In this document: one piece after another, positions 22,748 to 30,044 of the stretch | How the letters are laid out: each line of letters starts with the position of its first letter | How positions within the stretch are numbered: the first letter of the stretch is position 1 | Source: Pseudomonadaceae bacterium SI-3 | GTDB lineage: Bacteria; Pseudomonadota; Gammaproteobacteria; Pseudomonadales; Pseudomonadaceae | Direction: 5' to 3' | Assembly: GCA_004010935.1 (NCBI GenBank) | Contig: CP026511.1 | Coordinates: forward strand, 2,170,001 to 2,234,000 | Length of the DNA: 64,000 nt | Notes under the pieces: model-generated | Databases searched by the model: none | What the model was told of the DNA's origin: nothing | What the model saw: the letters and a program-made list of their open reading frames with translations, nothing else | Made by a program: the position numbers and the translations under genes

Positions 22748-22914
22748 TAAGTGTCTCCGTGAGGCTGAGTGCCTGAAGTCTAGTCAGCAATCCTGCTTCT
22801 GGAGAGATCAATCCGATGGTTAGCGACATCAACGGGTCGTCACGCTTGTCGTTGCTTGATCTTGCCTAAGTCGGCGCGTAAGGTTCGCGCCTCGGCCGCC
22901 TAGCGGTTGAACAA

Positions 22915-23045
22915 TTGAAGTGCGTGGTGCCCGGATCATGGTCCGGGTTAAATGGGAAATCAGTGCAAGCTGATGCTGCCCCCGCAACGGTAGAGTCGAT
23001 CCGACTGAGCCCGATACCAGCCCGTACTTCCCAGGAACTGTCGCG
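22915..23045 (+). ncRNA. Cobalamin (AdoCbl) riboswitch
   Basis: The conserved core is plain: GGTGCCCGGATC (P3-side), GTTAAATGGGAA, CAGTGCAAGCTGATGCTG, CCCCCGCAACGGTA (the B12 box) and GAGCCCGATACCAGCC. Boundaries are approximate. Binding of adenosylcobalamin normally lowers expression of the downstream gene, here the CobN-like operon. The distance from the B12 box to the ATG (about 140 nt) leaves room for a separate expression platform. Confidence 0.93.
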
Positions 23046-23102
23046 GTGGGCGACGTCCTCAGTTTTGTCGCTGTGCCGGTTTGGCTAGGCGCCTTATCTG
23101 TT

Positions 23103-23128
23103 GCCCACTGCACCCGGATGGAGTGGGC
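23103..23128 (+). promoter_or_regulatory. Ribosome-site-sequestering hairpin upstream of the CobN-like gene
   Basis: GCCCACT (23103-23109) pairs perfectly with AGTGGGC (23122-23128), which ends at the ATG. The ribosome site GGATGGAG lies in the loop and 3' arm. This is the expected OFF structure of a riboswitch acting at translation; there is no terminator-like T-run between the aptamer and the gene. Confidence 0.65.
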
Positions 23129-26100
23129 ATGTCTTTCGCCTTTCGCTGCGTGGCACTAGCGCTTCTGTTACTGACGCAAGTGGCACCGGTCAGTGCCAGT
23201 CAGATCAACGCGATCATTTCCCAATACAGCGCTGCCGAGTTCGCTTCAGCTGCCGCTTTGCTAAAGCAGCGATTCCCTGAGCGTACCGTTAGTGCCCGTA
23301 CTCCGGAGCAGCTGGCAGAGCTGGACGACGCCGCGATCGCCCAATGGCTTGCCAGTGGAAGGCGTTTGCTCGTGGTGGGTGTATTCGGGGCGGAAGTCGA
23401 GCGTTTGCGACCGTTGATCGAGCGACACAGCATGGGCGAGCGTTTCATCATGCATAGCGATCAGGCGTTGGTGGCGATGAGTCGCACCAATGACCGCATG
23501 GTGTTTGCCAACCGTGATCAGGCGGTAAGCCTGGGGGCTGAAAAACCCGCTGGTGATCTGGATGCGTGGGTGCAGTCGCTAGCGGCCGCCAACCCGATTC
23601 AAGCCCAATGGATCGAAGCGCGCAGTTATTGGCTGGCCGGTGGTAGCGATAATATTGCGCGGTTGCTGGTGTGGCTGACGGACCGCGACAACCCAGGTGG
23701 CACTGCCGAGCCTGCACAGGCTCGGCCGGCGATGCGCCTCTATCAGGACGGCGCGGTAAGGGAAGCTCAGGATCTCGCCTGGCGCGGCGAGCGAATGGTT
23801 GCGGTGATTGACCATGGCCGTGCTGATCGACGCGGAGATGCCGACCTCAACGATGCATTGTGTCAGACCCTGCAGCAACGCGACATCGCGTGCGTCAGCC
23901 TCTTTGCCAACTGGGGTGAGGGCACGCTGCAGGCGTTACATTGGCTAAACGACGCTGCGCACCCACCGCTGGCAGCGGTGGTTGTGCTGCAGGATTTCGT
24001 CCTCGGCGGCGGTGAGGGGCGCGAGGAGGCAACCGAACTCCTCAAACAGCTCAATGTGCCTGTATTCAAGGCGCTGCGTCTGGACGACCGCGACGAGAAC
24101 GCGTGGCAGCTTTCCAGCGATGGGCTCGGTCGTGACAAGGTGCATTACCGGCTGGCGATGCCCGAATTGCAGGGTACCGGTCAACCGATGGTGCTCGCGG
24201 CTTGGGAGTCGTCCCAGATCGACCCAAATTCGGGGATTCGCTTTGGCTTCAGTCAACCGTTACCTTCTCGTGTCGAGGCCATGGCGGCTCGCCTGGGCCG
24301 TTGGCAGCAGCTGCAGACGAAGGCGAATGCGGACAAGCGCTTGGCGATCGTCTACTACAACCACCCACCGGGGCGGCACAACATCGGCGCGGATAACCTC
24401 GATGTACCGCAATCGCTGTTTGCCATCCTTCAGCGTTTGAAAACTGAAGGCTACGACACTGGAATGCTGCCAGGCTCGCCCGAGCAGCTGCTGGAGCTGC
24501 TGCAAGAGCAGGGCGTCAACCTGCCGGAACAGGGCGATGCGCTGGCTGCGATGGCACGCAAGGCCGTTACGGTCGATACCGATGATTACCGTCGCTGGTT
24601 TCATTCGCTGCCGTCGGCATTGCAGGCGGAGATGGTCCTAGGCCCGCTGGGATATTGGAATGCGCAAATGCGCCGCGCGTTACAAGCCTCACAGCTGGAC
24701 ATCGCCAGATTGACTCTGAAAAACGGTTCCAGCGAGCTGCACCATGTGCTCGACGGTGTCGACCATCCGGCACGCGAGCGCGCGTTGGATCTGTTAGCCC
24801 AGCTCGAAACCTTTTATGAGCAGGCGCTGAGCCAGCCCGGGCTGGCTGATTGGGGCCAGGCTGACAGCCTCATTCAGGCGCTGGCAGAGACGGGCATTGA
24901 GGGGTTGCGCGGGTGGGGAGAGGCGCCGGGTCAGGTCATGGTGCATGACGGCCAGATGGTGCTGCCGGGGGTGCAGTTTGGCAACATCTTCATCGGGCCG
25001 CAGCCCCCCAGGGGCTGGGAAGTCGACGAGGAACTGCTCCATGCCAACCTGGTGTTCCCGCCACCCCATCAGTACCTGGCCCTGTATCACTGGTTGCGTG
25101 ACGAGTTCAGGGCTGATGCGCTGATCCACCTGGGTCGTCACTCCACCTATGAGTTTCTGCCGCGTCGTCGAGCAGGGCTCAGTGCCGAAGACTACCCGAC
25201 GCAGATCGTCGGTGACCTGCCGAGCATCTATCCCTACATCGTCGATGGGGTTGGCGAAGGGATTCAGGCCAAGCGTCGTGGGCTGGCCGTCATGATCGAT
25301 CACCTGACTCCGCCGCTGGTGGCTACGCCGCTTTATGACGATCTGCTCAAGTTGCGCCAATTGATCGAGAGCTTCGAGACGGGCACTGGCAGCAGCGAAG
25401 GGCCGGCGCGGCGCGCCACCATTGCAGAGATCAAGCGGTTGGTGACTCGTTCCGGGCTGGAACCCGAGCTTCGTGAGTCCATGGCCGAGCCGCTGGCAGC
25501 GCGCGGTATCGATTTCGAACAGGTGGATGATGACTTGCTGGTGCACGAGGTCGGGCATTACCTGACGAATATTCAGGAGCGCTTCATGCCGCTTGGCCTG
25601 CATGTGTTCGGCCAGCCCTGGGCGCCGGAAGCCGTGGACACCTTGCTGGCGTCCATGAATACCGAAGAGTCGCGTTACCGGCAGGCACTGATTGATTCAC
25701 CGGATGCGGAAATGCAGGCGCTGGTCGACGCGCTCAACGGCCGATTCGTCGAGCCAGGCAAAGGCAACGATCCGATCCGTACGCCGGAGGCGTTACCGAC
25801 CGGGCGCAATTTCCATGCGCTCGACAGTAGCCTGATCCCGAGTCGCATCGGCTGGAGTATCGGCAGCGAGCTGGCCGACCGTGCGCGACAGCGGCCAATG
25901 GAGCAGGGCGGACGCGAGGCCGTCATTCTCTGGGCATCCGATACCGTCCGTGATGAAGGCGCCATGATCGCCTTCGGACTGGACCTGCTTGGCGTAGAAC
26001 CTGTGTGGAACAGCCGGGGCATCGTCGAAGGCATCAAGCGAATACCTGCTTCAGCCGGGCGCGAGCGACGCGACCTGATGTTCACCACCTCCGGTTTGTT

Positions 26101-27409
26101 TCGCGATCTCTATGCCGATCAGCTTGCACTGCTCGAACGCGGAGTACTGCTAGCGCTGGACGGCGCCAGCGAAACCATTCGCCGTGACTACCCTGCCCTG
26201 CGTACGTCGTTGGATGCGGCACTGCAACCGCTCGGTGCGCTCGCAAGTGGCGGCGATGAAAGTCTGGCGTTGAATCTGGTGGCGGCTAATTGGGTGCGGG
26301 ACGCCGCGCAGCGACTCGACTCAGGCGCTGAGCCTGAGCAAGCCGGTAGCCTCGCCGCGTTGCGGCTCTTCGGTGTCGCACCGGGCGCTTACGGTGCTGG
26401 GGTCAATACGCTTGTCGAGCGTTCCGGAAGCTGGCAGGACCGCGGTGAGCTTGCACGTAGCTACGTCAATCGCATGGGGCATGCGTATGGCATGAACCAC
26501 CAGGGCGAGCCCGTGCAGGCGGTCTTCGAAGACAGCCTGAAACACGTCACCCGCACCTATCTCGGCCGTTCGAGCAATCTGTATGGGCTGATGGACAACA
26601 ACGATGCGTTTGACTACCTCGGCGGGTTGAGCATGGCCGTGGAGCACCTGAGCGGAAAAGCGCCGGAGAATTTCGTCAGCTGGCACAACGATCCGCGGAA
26701 GGTTCGTCTTGAGCCACTGCAGCAGGCGCTGTTGGCTGAATTGCGCGGGCGATTCCTGAATCCGGCCTGGATCAAGGCGTTGATGCAGCATGACTACGCC
26801 GGCGCGCGGACCATGGGCAGCGAGTTCCTGGAGTACCTCTGGGGCTGGCAGGTCACCAATCCGGACATCATCAAGGACAGCGCCTGGGAAGAGGTGAAGG
26901 CGGTGTATCTGGATGACAAGCACGCGCTTGGAGTCGACGCCTTTCTCGAGAAAGGCGCCAACGTCCATGTCAAAAGCAACATGCTCGCAATCATGCTGGT
27001 GGCGATTCAGAAGGGCTTTTGGAAGGCCGACGAGGCGACCCAGTACGCGCTGGCCGAGCAGTTCGCAGCCCTGGTTGCTGAGCACGGCTTGCCGGGAAGT
27101 GGGCATACCCGGCCGGATCATCCGATGTTCGAGTGGCTGATGCCGAAGCTATCCGACCCATTGCGCGACGCACTGCAGGCTCGGCTCGATTCGGCACTGC
27201 GCGCGGCGCCGCAAACGAACCCACCGAGCAGTATCAGCGAGATTCAGCCGGAGGCGACGGACATGCCACAAGCCGCGCCAGATCAAACTGAAACACAAGG
27301 TGATCAAAGCGCTAGCCGATACCTTTGGCTGGCTGCACTGATCGTTCTGCTGCTATTAGGGCTTGGCATCTGGCGTGGTCGTGGGCCTCGGCCGAGGGGA
27401 GTTGCGTAG
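23129..27409 (+). CDS. Exported, membrane-anchored CobN-like cobaltochelatase family protein
   Basis: The 1426-residue product belongs to the CobN/BchH (metal chelatase large subunit) family: PPHQYLALYHWLRDEF, then IHLGRHSTYEFLPRR and GVGEGIQAKRRGLAVMIDHL. Unlike cytoplasmic CobN it begins with a signal peptide (MSFAFRCVALALLLLTQVAP then VSAS) and ends with a transmembrane helix (about 1402-1420) and a basic tail. The bulk should therefore lie in the periplasm anchored at the inner membrane. The canonical active-site run H-x-GKHGxxEWLPGK reads HLGRHSTYEFLPRR, keeping H667, H671 and E675 but not the GK/HG residues. The start at 23129 follows GGATGGAG. P. aeruginosa has a similar gene next to ExbB-like and DUF2149 genes. 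It is not the cob-pathway chelatase by context. Confidence 0.88.
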   Translation: MSFAFRCVALALLLLTQVAPVSASQINAIISQYSAAEFASAAALLKQRFPERTVSARTPEQLAELDDAAIAQWLASGRRLLVVGVFGAEVERLRPLIERHSMGERFIMHSDQALVAMSRTNDRMVFANRDQAVSLGAEKPAGDLDAWVQSLAAANPIQAQWIEARSYWLAGGSDNIARLLVWLTDRDNPGGTAEPAQARPAMRLYQDGAVREAQDLAWRGERMVAVIDHGRADRRGDADLNDALCQTLQQRDIACVSLFANWGEGTLQALHWLNDAAHPPLAAVVVLQDFVLGGGEGREEATELLKQLNVPVFKALRLDDRDENAWQLSSDGLGRDKVHYRLAMPELQGTGQPMVLAAWESSQIDPNSGIRFGFSQPLPSRVEAMAARLGRWQQLQTKANADKRLAIVYYNHPPGRHNIGADNLDVPQSLFAILQRLKTEGYDTGMLPGSPEQLLELLQEQGVNLPEQGDALAAMARKAVTVDTDDYRRWFHSLPSALQAEMVLGPLGYWNAQMRRALQASQLDIARLTLKNGSSELHHVLDGVDHPARERALDLLAQLETFYEQALSQPGLADWGQADSLIQALAETGIEGLRGWGEAPGQVMVHDGQMVLPGVQFGNIFIGPQPPRGWEVDEELLHANLVFPPPHQYLALYHWLRDEFRADALIHLGRHSTYEFLPRRRAGLSAEDYPTQIVGDLPSIYPYIVDGVGEGIQAKRRGLAVMIDHLTPPLVATPLYDDLLKLRQLIESFETGTGSSEGPARRATIAEIKRLVTRSGLEPELRESMAEPLAARGIDFEQVDDDLLVHEVGHYLTNIQERFMPLGLHVFGQPWAPEAVDTLLASMNTEESRYRQALIDSPDAEMQALVDALNGRFVEPGKGNDPIRTPEALPTGRNFHALDSSLIPSRIGWSIGSELADRARQRPMEQGGREAVILWASDTVRDEGAMIAFGLDLLGVEPVWNSRGIVEGIKRIPASAGRERRDLMFTTSGLFRDLYADQLALLERGVLLALDGASETIRRDYPALRTSLDAALQPLGALASGGDESLALNLVAANWVRDAAQRLDSGAEPEQAGSLAALRLFGVAPGAYGAGVNTLVERSGSWQDRGELARSYVNRMGHAYGMNHQGEPVQAVFEDSLKHVTRTYLGRSSNLYGLMDNNDAFDYLGGLSMAVEHLSGKAPENFVSWHNDPRKVRLEPLQQALLAELRGRFLNPAWIKALMQHDYAGARTMGSEFLEYLWGWQVTNPDIIKDSAWEEVKAVYLDDKHALGVDAFLEKGANVHVKSNMLAIMLVAIQKGFWKADEATQYALAEQFAALVAEHGLPGSGHTRPDHPMFEWLMPKLSDPLRDALQARLDSALRAAPQTNPPSSISEIQPEATDMPQAAPDQTETQGDQSASRYLWLAALIVLLLLGLGIWRGRGPRPRGVA

Positions 27410-27410
27410 C

Positions 27411-27887
27411 GTGTTCGACAATCAATTGTTCAGTTGGCTGCATCTGCTGGTGGGCTGGCTGTTGCAGCCTGTGACCTGGGGCCTGTTCGGGCTTTTGGCG
27501 TTGGCCATTTGCGATGCCGGTGTCGCAATGGGTGAGCGCCTGGGTGGGCTGAGGCGCTGGCGCCAGCTGCCCGCTGCGGAGATCGAGCGGCGCGCGCGTC
27601 GAAGGCTTGATCGAGCCGATCTAGTGGCGCGGATTGGCCCCATGCTCGGACTGATGGGAACGCTGATCCCGCTGGGCCCCGGCTTGGCGGCCCTGGGAGA
27701 TGGCAACGTGCAGATCCTCAGCGTGGCTATGCGCGTAGCCTTCGACACGACGGTGCTTGGTTTGCTGATCGGCGTACTCGGTTTCGCACTGGGCCGCTTG
27801 CGCCGGCGTTGGTACGACGAACTACTGGACGAACTCGAAGCCCGGTCGATTAAGGAGCGCGACGATGAGCCGGCGCTGGCGCTCTAG
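27411..27887 (+). CDS. MotA/TolQ/ExbB family proton-channel protein
   Basis: A 158-residue inner-membrane protein with three hydrophobic helices. The conserved channel core is RIGPMLGLMGTLIPLGPGL followed by AMRVAFDTTVLGLLIG, typical of TolQ/ExbB. Such proteins form a proton-conducting pentamer around an ExbD/TolR dimer and energise envelope machines. It starts with a GTG one base after the CobN-like stop, with AGGGGAG upstream, and overlaps the next gene by 23 nt, so the three genes form one operon. No tonB or tolR gene is adjacent; the DUF2149 protein is the natural partner. Confidence 0.9.
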   Translation: MFDNQLFSWLHLLVGWLLQPVTWGLFGLLALAICDAGVAMGERLGGLRRWRQLPAAEIERRARRRLDRADLVARIGPMLGLMGTLIPLGPGLAALGDGNVQILSVAMRVAFDTTVLGLLIGVLGFALGRLRRRWYDELLDELEARSIKERDDEPALAL

Positions 27888-28164
27888 TCGGTTCGCCTCT
27901 GGCGACGACGATCCGCTGGGGCCACTGGCAAATATGGTCGATGTCGTGCTGGTATTCGCCTGTGGGCTGATCGCTGCGCTTGTCGCACAGACGGACCTGC
28001 TCCAACAGTTGAATGCTGCGAAACAGCCGGTTGCCGTCGAACGCGGGCGGGAGCTTCCAAAGCTACCTGACAGTGTTGAAGGTGACAGCGGGCAAGGGCT
28101 TGAGAGCGTTGGCCAGGTTTACCGTGATCCGGCCACCGGCAAGCTGATCCTGATCGGCGATTGA
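27865..28164 (+). CDS. DUF2149 protein, ExbD-like in layout
   Basis: A 99-residue protein with a short cytoplasmic N-terminus, one transmembrane helix (about 26-46) and a periplasmic tail ending YRDPATGKLILIGD, the DUF2149 signature. Its helix begins NMVDVVLVFACG, with an Asp at the position where ExbD/TolR have the proton-carrying Asp (xxIDVMLVLL). From this and its coupling to an ExbB-like gene I infer it is the ExbD counterpart. AAGGAG precedes the ATG; it overlaps the ExbB-like gene by 23 nt. Confidence 0.85.
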   Translation: MSRRWRSSRFASGDDDPLGPLANMVDVVLVFACGLIAALVAQTDLLQQLNAAKQPVAVERGRELPKLPDSVEGDSGQGLESVGQVYRDPATGKLILIGD

Positions 28165-28700: not shown

Positions 28701-30044
28701 CTACCTGGCCGAAACGCTCTGTTGCGCTGATATTTGCTGCAACTGCTCGACCAGTTGGTCGAAATCGGGGCGGTGGCTGGGGTTTTCCTGCATGCACTGA
28801 CGCTGCAGGGTGGCAAGGGTTGTCAGGCGCTCGTCCTGACCGTATGCATCGCAGCGGTCCAGTAACTCCTCGAGCAAACAGCCGAACGCACGCGCTTCAA
28901 TACGCCGTAGCGCCTGACCCGCAGTGGTCTCCGGATCGAAGAACGAGGCTGCACCGAAATCGCTGAGCAGTGTTTGGCCGCGCGAATCGACCAGCAGGTT
29001 ATGTGCGTAGAGGTCGCCATGCAGGATGCCGCGCGTGTGGAGGTGGCTGGTTGCAGAAGCTGCACCTGTCGCGATCCGCAGCAGCTGTTCGGCGGAGAAC
29101 CGCTGCCCGGGTGCGTAACAGTCACGGGTACAACTGGCTAGTGATGGCGGATCGGCGAGCACACGGTAAGAAGGATCGATGAGCTCCATCAGCAAGCCCG
29201 GTAGCGCATCGGTGTGCTCGGCCAGTGGTCCAGCAATGCCGATCAGGTTGGGATGTTCGCCAGCGGCGATACAGGCCGCCATCTCGCTGTGAGGCAGCCC
29301 ATCGCTGGTCAGGCTGCCTTTGAACAGTTTGGCTGCCATGGCACGGCTCGGCTGGCCGGACGCTTGCCAGTCAGCACGATGAACGACGCCGGATGCGCCC
29401 TGGCCAAGCACGTCGCCGAACATGATCTGCCTGCGGTCGACCGGTGGCAGCGGATGCTGCGCCAAGGTCTGCGATTCCAGCGCATCGCTGAACGGGTTGC
29501 CGGCGAACGCCAGCCAGCTGAGGCGCGGCATCGACAACAGCCACTGCGGCAATGCTGGCAAGTGATTGGCGGCAATGCGCAGCAACTCTAACTGGCGGCA
29601 GCGAGCAAGCGATTCGGGCAATGCGGCTAGCTGGTTGCCGGCGAGCATCAGCTTCTGCAGGCGGTCGCAGCGTCCAATTTCGTCAGGCACCGCTTCGAGC
29701 TGGTTGTCGGTCAGGATCAGCCAGCGCAGCCTGGGCGGCAGCGCTTCGGCGGGCACGTGGCGGATGCGATTGGCTTTGAACCCAACCATCTCCAGCCTAG
29801 CGCAGTGGCCGATCGAGGCGGACAGCTCGGTGAACGGGTTGTCCGAGCAGAATAGGATGCGCAGCTTGTGCAGGCGCGACAAATCGTCAGGCAAACTGCT
29901 GAGCTGGTTCCCTGAAAGGTTGAGAATTTCCAGGCTATCAGCCAGGTCGAATATGGCTCGAGGGAAAGTCTCGAGCTGTTCTGACAGGTCCAGGCGGGTT
30001 GTTCCGGCGAGGTCGCCGCGTTCAAGTTGTGCCAAGGTGTGCAT
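28701..30044 (-). CDS. Leucine-rich-repeat protein kinase
   Basis: A 447-residue fusion. The N-terminal ~190 residues hold about six leucine-rich repeats of the short bacterial type (LEILNLSGNQLSSLPDDL, LRWLILTDNQLEAVPDEI, LQKLMLAGNQLAALPESL). The C-terminal part (about 205-440) is a eukaryotic-like protein kinase: glycine loop LGQGASGVVHRADW, ATP lysine in MAAKLFKG, catalytic loop ILHGDLYAHNLLVD (HGD in place of HRD) and metal motif LLSDFGAASFF. No signal peptide or membrane helix is seen, so it is cytoplasmic. The phosphorylation target is unknown; LRRs suggest a protein ligand. Confidence 0.9.
   Translation of the reverse strand: MHTLAQLERGDLAGTTRLDLSEQLETFPRAIFDLADSLEILNLSGNQLSSLPDDLSRLHKLRILFCSDNPFTELSASIGHCARLEMVGFKANRIRHVPAEALPPRLRWLILTDNQLEAVPDEIGRCDRLQKLMLAGNQLAALPESLARCRQLELLRIAANHLPALPQWLLSMPRLSWLAFAGNPFSDALESQTLAQHPLPPVDRRQIMFGDVLGQGASGVVHRADWQASGQPSRAMAAKLFKGSLTSDGLPHSEMAACIAAGEHPNLIGIAGPLAEHTDALPGLLMELIDPSYRVLADPPSLASCTRDCYAPGQRFSAEQLLRIATGAASATSHLHTRGILHGDLYAHNLLVDSRGQTLLSDFGAASFFDPETTAGQALRRIEARAFGCLLEELLDRCDAYGQDERLTTLATLQRQCMQENPSHRPDFDQLVEQLQQISAQQSVSAR

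Follow-up and report, generated by a model that had tools for sequence, protein, structure and literature searches.

Several envelope members of the CobN family have been described. HmuS is a membrane-bound heme de-chelatase for which a cryo-electron microscopy structure and NADH-dependent activity were reported in 2025 (PMC12583661), and a further report deals with HmuS of P. gingivalis (PMC13227078). BtuS proteins are treated for M. barkeri (PMC10846266) and, as BtuS1 and BtuS2, for Bacteroides fragilis (PMC6460266), the family name being credited to Rodionov 2003 (PMC6460266, PMC10100974). A cobalamin role was suggested for an hmu-like operon behind a B12 riboswitch in B. fragilis NCTC 9343 (PMC10100974), and the HmuU and HmuV proteins were assigned to energising the receptor HmuR (PMC12583661, PMC10100974). 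PA1922-PA1925 of P. aeruginosa are a Zur-regulated set of receptor, CobN-like, ExbD-like and hypothetical proteins (PMC4542158), and in 2012 a cobN-exbB-exbD-tonB cluster without CobS or CobT, on plasmid pSZ77 of Geobacter (Trichlorobacter) lovleyi, was suggested to be linked to cobalamin (PMC3403914). Here we analyse a stretch of 64,000 nucleotides from Pseudomonadaceae bacterium SI-3 (the window; positions 2170001-2234000 of a 4.84-Mb chromosome), in which a cobalamin riboswitch precedes genes for a CobN-fold protein, an ExbB-type channel protein and a DUF2149 protein. The type of system is already known; what is new is a proteobacterial branch and a regulatory variant of a family that is barely understood. 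An earlier note on this DNA had taken the mechanism to be undescribed, which the HmuS, BtuS, B. fragilis and G. lovleyi reports have made outdated. In titles and abstract openings of open-licence literature, we found neither the proteobacterial branch nor a proton-driven chelatase.

The aptamer is one of three cobalamin riboswitches in the host genome. A hairpin with an 8-bp stem and further inner pairs follows it and is present in both the minimum-free-energy and centroid folds of the RNA 22907-23140, the z-score of the whole fold being only -1.73. The hairpin encloses the first base of the start codon of the CobN-like gene (ATG) and the ribosome-binding site 5 nt upstream (GGAG, 23120-23123), which suggests that the riboswitch acts on translation, with the hairpin as its probable expression platform. 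For the ExbB-like gene, comparison with relatives makes the GTG at 27411 the likelier start, so that this gene abuts the stop codon of the CobN-like gene, and the DUF2149 gene overlaps the ExbB-like gene by 23 bases. Both the riboswitch and the three abutting or overlapping genes are thus as the earlier note had described them (Table 1).

Table 1. Features of the riboswitch-led operon (positions counted from the first base of the window)
Feature	Position	Strand	Basis
Cobalamin riboswitch aptamer	22907..23039	+	RF00174 (Rfam), 65.1 bits, gathering cut-off 31.5, E 8.1e-14
Predicted hairpin with ribosome-binding site and first base of start codon	23102..23129	+	RNA fold
CobN-fold (BtuS/HmuS-like) protein, predicted to be exported, 1426 aa	23129..27409	+	PF02514
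Signal-peptide-like N-terminus, about residues 1-23	23129..23197	+	Hydropathy, best 12-residue window 2.45; sequence read directly
Catalytic loop HLGRHSTYEFLP, residues 667-678, B12-branch signature	25127..25162	+	Alignment
Glu710, column altered in ChlH variant chain 6yt0	25256..25258	+	48/48 B12 branch, 18/18 CobN/BchH
Predicted C-terminal membrane anchor, about residues 1398-1415	27320..27373	+	Hydropathy 2.09
MotA/TolQ/ExbB-type channel protein (HmuU-like)	27411..27887	+	PF01618, E 1.8e-9
DUF2149 protein (HmuV-like), one membrane helix and small C-terminal part	27865..28164	+	PF09919, E 8e-11

The CobN-like gene is the sole PF02514 gene of the host genome and matches the family at 855.5 bits (cut-off 24.5, E 8e-257). 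Its top match by sequence among solved structures is HmuS (9d26, E 1.5e-119), with ChlH and CobN next, and it scores under all nine NCBIfam CobN/BchH cut-offs listed (for example, 611.5 bits against 1619 and 507.2 against 822). We built a quick maximum-likelihood tree of 52 rows, 20 of them proteins of the B12-riboswitch type and none from P. aeruginosa, with SH-like approximate likelihood-ratio (SH-aLRT) support. Three clades of envelope proteins emerged, made up of the B12-riboswitch proteins (support of 100), the HmuS proteins (100) and the other DUF2149-linked proteins (95); a branch of support 99 separated them from CobN of the cytoplasmic type and BchH. An earlier tree without HmuS gave the B12 clade 100 and the remaining DUF2149-linked group only 45. 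Judged by this phylogeny and by a loop signature of their own, the B12-riboswitch CobN-like proteins are a distinct, supported branch (the B12 branch) of the envelope CobN (HmuS/BtuS) family. A CobN-like protein from Marinobacter M3C is nested within it.

Hydropathy also predicts that the CobN-like protein is exported and C-terminally anchored, the anchor being directly followed by positive residues, and to that extent the export signal and anchor claimed previously are confirmed. A C-terminal hydropathy window of at least 1.0 is found in 45 of the 48 B12-branch proteins and in none of 18 cytoplasmic-type CobN/BchH proteins. In the residue counts given here, six of the 49 CobN-like open reading frames (ORFs), all shorter than 1300 aa, are excluded (L021, L037, L041, L047, L050, and L052). 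Every residue of the loop H-x-G-R-H-S-T-Y-E-F-L-P is kept in 48 of 48 members of the branch, except for position 668, which is Leu, Val, or Ile, whereas position 672 is Gly in all 18 CobN/BchH proteins, none of which has Arg at 670. The Marinobacter member, which is outside the 48 (L140), keeps GRHST but carries Tyr667 and Arg674 and has no His667. The catalytic residues His671, Glu675, and Glu710 are invariant (48/48). The Glu675 and Glu710 columns are those changed in ChlH chains 6ytj and 6yt0, which we take to be inactive mutants. His671 is the equivalent of HmuS His538, a residue that a section heading of the HmuS article calls essential (PMC12583661).

Given this top structural match and the same topology and partners, the protein could itself be a HmuS, removing iron or another metal from heme or porphyrin for supply to the cell, and its control by B12 would then be a secondary trait. 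Other members of the family do adjoin hmuY and receptor genes, nikR, or hyp genes or are Zur-controlled (PMC4542158). The features that mark HmuS are nevertheless lost in the B12 branch. The second axial histidine (H1209, in LSLDHxxEFMGG) is replaced by Asp1159 in 48 of 48 B12-branch proteins, while the HmuS rows L143 and L144 have His; all 8 rows of the main CobN group likewise have Asp in this column, so that at the domain V motif the branch resembles CobN and not HmuS. At HmuS His254, in the head/neck heme site, the aligned B12-branch segment has no conserved His, in a local alignment that is gappy, and for the region of Met79 phmmer leaves the first 292 residues unaligned with HmuS. The methionine-rich insertion in domain IV of HmuS (residues 711-920) has no counterpart in the window protein. 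With corrinoid genes as neighbors in addition, we regard a HmuS-type function as very unlikely.

Conservation of the gene set was assessed in 48 relatives obtained by a scan of genome contigs, which came from Pseudomonadaceae, Methylophaga, Steroidobacter, Methylophilaceae, Nitrospinota, Nitrospirota, and others, the nearest named ones being Stutzerimonas/Pseudomonas entries with 89% identity. ExbB and DUF2149 genes lie within 2 kb downstream of the CobN-like gene at all 49 loci (the relatives and the window). Of the three outcomes that the earlier note named as refuting it, a poor riboswitch score and a lack of co-occurrence are thus not observed, and the third, a failed signal-peptide prediction, is judged here by hydropathy. 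A riboswitch is found within 500 bp upstream in 29 of the 48 relatives and heads a gene run to cobN, with btuB first where read, in 15; with the window included, it leads the gene or its operon at 45 of 49 loci. Four of the 15 operon-type loci (L034, L036, L042, and L051) have one or two opposite-strand ORFs, perhaps spurious, between riboswitch and cobN. Of the four loci without a riboswitch, three (L018, L037, and L052) are truncated where their contigs stop, and the fourth, L032, shows none in its locus. The order of the run is riboswitch-btuB-btuM-cobO-cobB-cobN-exbB-DUF2149 in L030, L031, and L038 (btuB and btuM named by search, the others by eye) and riboswitch-btuB-cobN-exbB-DUF2149-cbiA-cobO in the type of L019 (btuB by search, the others by eye).

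Because this first set is biased toward relatives of the query, a second test was seeded with DUF2149 in a sample of 398 genomes of the phylum. DUF2149 occurs in 17 of these genomes at 18 loci, our own included, and at all 18 a CobN-family gene and an ExbB gene are adjacent to it or one gene off. Six of the loci belong to the B12 branch (our own and L087-L091), and five of them have a same-strand upstream riboswitch: our own, L087, L088 (only 33.5 bits), L091, and L090 (via L100). The sixth, L089, has none, a 5S rRNA gene lying ∼420 bp upstream with a contig end soon beyond. At the 12 other loci, a riboswitch is present in the stretch at three (L075, L085, and L086) and not at nine. The idea that B12 control is unique to the window's branch was dropped, since riboswitches lead or flank the other-clade members L075, L085, L086, L141, L149, and L147. 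A DUF2149 query matched 11 plasmid records, 10 of which have CobN in the same cluster (two Pseudoalteromonas records judged by coordinates); the window's own DUF2149 protein, used as the query, matched no plasmid. The weakest DUF2149 match, on a Paracoccus plasmid (L151:4271-4555), has no CobN annotated nearby, and the CobN of a haloarchaeal plasmid has no DUF2149 annotated nearby.

The corrinoid metabolism of the carriers bears directly on the substrate. We found no CbiC/CobH in the host genome and, as had been expected, no CobS above the cut-off (which is 558.55 bits, whereas two AAA matches reached 25 and 23.6); the search did not extend to CobT or to further ring genes. The second riboswitch of the host (L055) precedes a salvage operon of the btuB-btuM-cobO-cobB-bluB-cobQ type (further genes named by eye), in which a 189-aa protein matches the solved cobalamin transporter 8c7p (E 1e-49) and is presumably BtuM. 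The third (L056) lies ahead of a gene for a TonB-dependent receptor, next to which a periplasmic-binding-protein gene runs in the opposite direction. The absence of CbiC and CobS combined with riboswitch operons of the salvage type makes the host look like a salvager of corrinoids, not a maker. The receptor gene of L056 (2263-4311, ∼3982762-3984810 of contig C1 of the same genome) seems broken near its start, as only the barrel is matched, the Plug domain is not, and the first ∼220 residues do not resemble a receptor; it could be a pseudogene or reflect a sequencing error.

Among the 398 sample genomes, CbiC is present in 149 but in none of the 17 with DUF2149 (Fisher P of 4e-4, with kinship ignored, the genomes not being independent). 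Within the window's family, CbiC is found in 15 of 15 genomes without DUF2149 and is absent from both genomes with it, and it is absent from 46 of the 48 relatives' genomes. Azotobacter vinelandii (locus L045, genome G039) is one carrier of the set in which no CbiC shows up. BtuM is present in 4 of the 6 B12-branch sample genomes against 17 of the 392 others (two of the 17 being partial matches). It is described in PMC6072759, and we had considered it as an obligate inner-membrane partner; this was dropped since it was found in only 27 of the 48 genomes, which leaves it a frequent partner.

Several branch proteins are publicly labelled cobaltochelatase subunit CobN, although the genomes that carry them mostly have no CbiC, and we flag this as a misannotation. 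An ordinary biosynthetic CobN is what membership in PF02514 and the automatic annotation of relatives would suggest, but it is already contradicted by the predicted export and anchoring, the missing CobS and CbiC, the scores below the NCBIfam CobN cut-offs and the different clade, and we give it practically no credence. Canonical-type CobN genes were seen in two genomes that have a DUF2149 trio and in which no CbiC was found (G303:C92:74202-77519 and G427:C17:935521-938832).

The earlier note had left the substrate as corrinoids, cobalt, or another tetrapyrrole or metal. As the hosts mostly have no CbiC, the corrinoid itself is likely to be the goal and free cobalt is unlikely. The machine could still recycle cobalt by taking it out of chelates, among them corrinoids that the cell cannot use, which would work like HmuS, and cobalt transporters are classical members of the B12 regulon. 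However, no new corrin would be expected to take up the cobalt in the 46 hosts without CbiC, and in the B12-branch loci inspected by eye, no metal permease resembling DUF2162 was noticed. L075 and L141 differ in having a DUF2162 predicted transporter with the trio, a place taken in the B12-branch loci read by genes for corrinoid transport and the late pathway. Cobalt scavenging is, on these grounds, highly improbable.

The ExbB-like and DUF2149 partners were compared for 34 of 66 loci, the alignments holding 22 and 28 sequences, respectively. The ExbB-like proteins share an invariant core of L79-G80-L81, T84, P87, and G89-P90 (LGL-x-x-T, P-x-GP), and Asp26 of DUF2149 is invariant and sits in the single membrane helix, which spans residues 19-42 in a model of low confidence (pLDDT of 71, pTM of 0.31). 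ExbD has a conserved membrane-helix aspartate (D25), which D26 of DUF2149 resembles. ExbD was absent among the solved-structure matches of the DUF2149 profile, and the ExbB profile gave no solved-structure match at E 0.01.

What this pair might energise can be argued in two ways. The role published for HmuU and HmuV would have it help to energise BtuB, a TonB-dependent receptor, with the CobN-like protein as a passive partner, and a BtuB-like receptor is indeed present in the stretch read at 14 of the 18 sample loci (all 12 of the non-B12 loci and two of the six B12-branch loci, L090 and L091) and within 10 kb at 20 of the 49 B12-type loci. We favor a role with CobN instead, because CobN accompanies DUF2149 at 18 of 18 sample loci against 14 of 18 for the receptor, because, on the Trichlorobacter plasmid pSZ77, two riboswitches precede ExbB-DUF2149-CobN and the cluster has a distinct ExbB-ExbD-TonB set as well, and because Marinobacter M3C shows neither the anchor nor adjacent partners. 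In this single case, no ExbB or DUF2149 gene is annotated beside the CobN-like gene and the C-terminal anchor is absent (hydropathy of 0.14), while the signal-like N-terminus is kept. Furthermore, the window trio has no receptor match closer than 10 kb and none is annotated within 9 kb of the DUF2149 gene of a Comamonadaceae plasmid, and Methanosarcina acetivorans, an organism without an outer membrane, matches both PF09919 and PF02514. An energiser of BtuB therefore seems unlikely.

Taken together, the riboswitch, the operon, the ExbB-DUF2149 pairing, the retained chelatase residues, the lost HmuS features and the hosts without corrin-ring synthesis, all read from sequence, are consistent with a machine in the cell envelope that salvages corrinoids, is driven by the proton motive force and is repressed by B12, a reading to which we give close to an even chance. 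At low B12, the riboswitch would release translation of the CobN-fold protein, which would be exported and held at the inner membrane by its C-terminal helix with the chelatase body in the periplasm. ExbB and DUF2149 would form a proton channel like that of ExbB and ExbD, whose motion would drive the working cycle of the CobN body, replacing the AAA+ ATP motors CobST and ChlID of the cytoplasmic relatives. Corrinoids entering through BtuB would be made usable before they reach the inner-membrane transporter (BtuM or BtuCD/BtuF), beyond which the late-pathway enzymes CobO, CobB, CobQ, and BluB would take over. For the chemical step, our guess leans slightly toward insertion of cobalt into scavenged corrinoids, or exchange of their metal, over their simple capture and transfer. 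This model fits most of the observations, by gene association and residue conservation, and agrees with the earlier picture of a B12-regulated, exported, ExbB-linked, and corrinoid-related device made at low B12, which is supported here.

A rival reading is a corrinoid-binding shuttle without metal chemistry. The CobN-fold body would only capture corrinoids at BtuB and pass them to BtuM or BtuCD, the catalytic residues being kept for binding; the hosts already have late-pathway enzymes for cobalt-containing corrinoids, and the BtuM gene shares the operon at loci of the Methylobacillus/Methylotenera type and at others lies close to the trio. The catalytic loop and Glu710, invariant in 48 of 48 proteins and with a His and two Glu common to true chelatases, exceed the needs of a binding protein, however, and Marinobacter M3C, where the CobN-like gene is in one run with btuB, ABC genes, and a gene for a cobalamin-binding protein, already has a BtuF-like shuttle. 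We consider the shuttle reading rather unlikely.

Several points weigh against the proton-driven salvage model. Two of the 48 hosts (G006 and G031) have CbiC, and in two sample genomes (G134 and G222) the three-piece PF02514 match seen in the B12 branch occurs although DUF2149 has no match. Marinobacter M3C has a B12-type CobN without ExbB-DUF2149 nearby, so either the motor is not strictly needed or it lies elsewhere in that genome. The BtuB-like receptors at every non-B12 sample locus fit the published view of HmuU and HmuV. De-chelation by HmuS in lysate needs NADH and not ATP (PMC12583661), and HmuS may thus need no mechanical motor. Expression switched on by low B12 speaks against removal of cobalt, although taking out the metal is so far the one reaction demonstrated in an envelope protein of this family. 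The steps of salvage, finally, are all drawn from sequence.

If the model is correct, it adds a step to B12 salvage in Pseudomonadaceae, Azotobacter, methylotrophs, and Nitrospina that we did not find described in open-licence literature, and it gives a testable answer on the role of HmuU and HmuV, namely, powering the chelatase and not the receptor. A broader and more speculative proposal, which we think improbable as a whole, is that the DUF2149 family is a third power source for class I chelatases, a proton-driven stator in place of the ATP ring and outside the cytoplasm, with branches for heme iron, zinc, nickel, and corrinoids. The B12 branch would then be a periplasmic cobalt insertase or metal-exchange enzyme, rescuing metal-free or wrong-metal corrinoids released by others in hosts without ring synthesis.

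The contexts of other family members point to several metals, namely, heme iron, zinc, possibly nickel, and corrinoids. L143, L144, and L148 lie with HmuY and receptor genes. On a Runella plasmid (L142), the CobN-ExbB-DUF2149 trio lies within hyp hydrogenase genes, and on an Azospirillum plasmid (L147), it adjoins nikR, and a cobalamin riboswitch separates DUF2149 from ABC genes; these two contexts suggest nickel-linked as well as B12-linked versions. In the riboswitch-led operon of L075/L099, distant from the window's branch, a fusion of a periplasmic-binding protein with a CbiZ amidohydrolase, a corrinoid-remodelling enzyme, is encoded between DUF2149 and CobN (L075:997-3066, minus strand), which counts in favor of the salvage model.

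Some other observations concern genes next to the operon or behind cobalamin riboswitches. A fusion of leucine-rich repeats and a protein kinase domain (28701-30044 of the window, minus strand) adjoins the operon and, by eye, is also beside the trio in L008. Pairs of TonB-receptor and PepSY_TM genes have a cobalamin riboswitch upstream in L130 (1043-4694) and L053 (15240-18893). Downstream of a cobalamin riboswitch in L120, L127, L129, and L131 are ORFs that by eye resemble ribonucleotide reductase subunits; such riboswitches control B12-independent isozymes, which these ORFs fit.

Compared with the known systems, the window set resembles HmuS/HmuT/HmuU/HmuV (hmuYRSTUV of Bacteroidota; 9d26), with which it shares the CobN fold, the export signal, the C-terminal anchor, the ExbB-type and DUF2149 partners and the catalytic His and Glu. 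The HmuS system has a heme context with HmuY and HmuR, HmuT, H1209, the ligands M79 and H254 and the methionine-rich insert; the window branch has no H1209, no aligned H254 and no insert, no HmuY, HmuR, or HmuT was seen alongside, and it is under B12 riboswitch control. B. fragilis likewise has envelope CobN-like proteins (BtuS1 and BtuS2) and a riboswitch before an hmu-like gene group, but it belongs to Bacteroidota and its group includes two receptor genes, whereas the window branch belongs to Proteobacteria, Nitrospinota, and Nitrospirota and has its own loop signature; the B. fragilis sequences were not compared. A similar set does exist in P. aeruginosa, as the earlier note stated, with CobN-like and channel proteins and a receptor, but it is part of the zinc regulon (PMC4542158), and sets of the same layout (L076 and L081) fall in another clade. 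The pSZ77 set of G. lovleyi, in which two B12 riboswitches precede receptor-DUF2162-ExbB-DUF2149-CobN, differs in its clade, in DUF2162 and in its own TonB set. The class I chelatases CobN-CobST and ChlH-ChlID have the same CobN fold and HxGxH...E...GE catalytic residues as the window protein but are cytoplasmic, driven by ATP through AAA+ partners, and biosynthetic.

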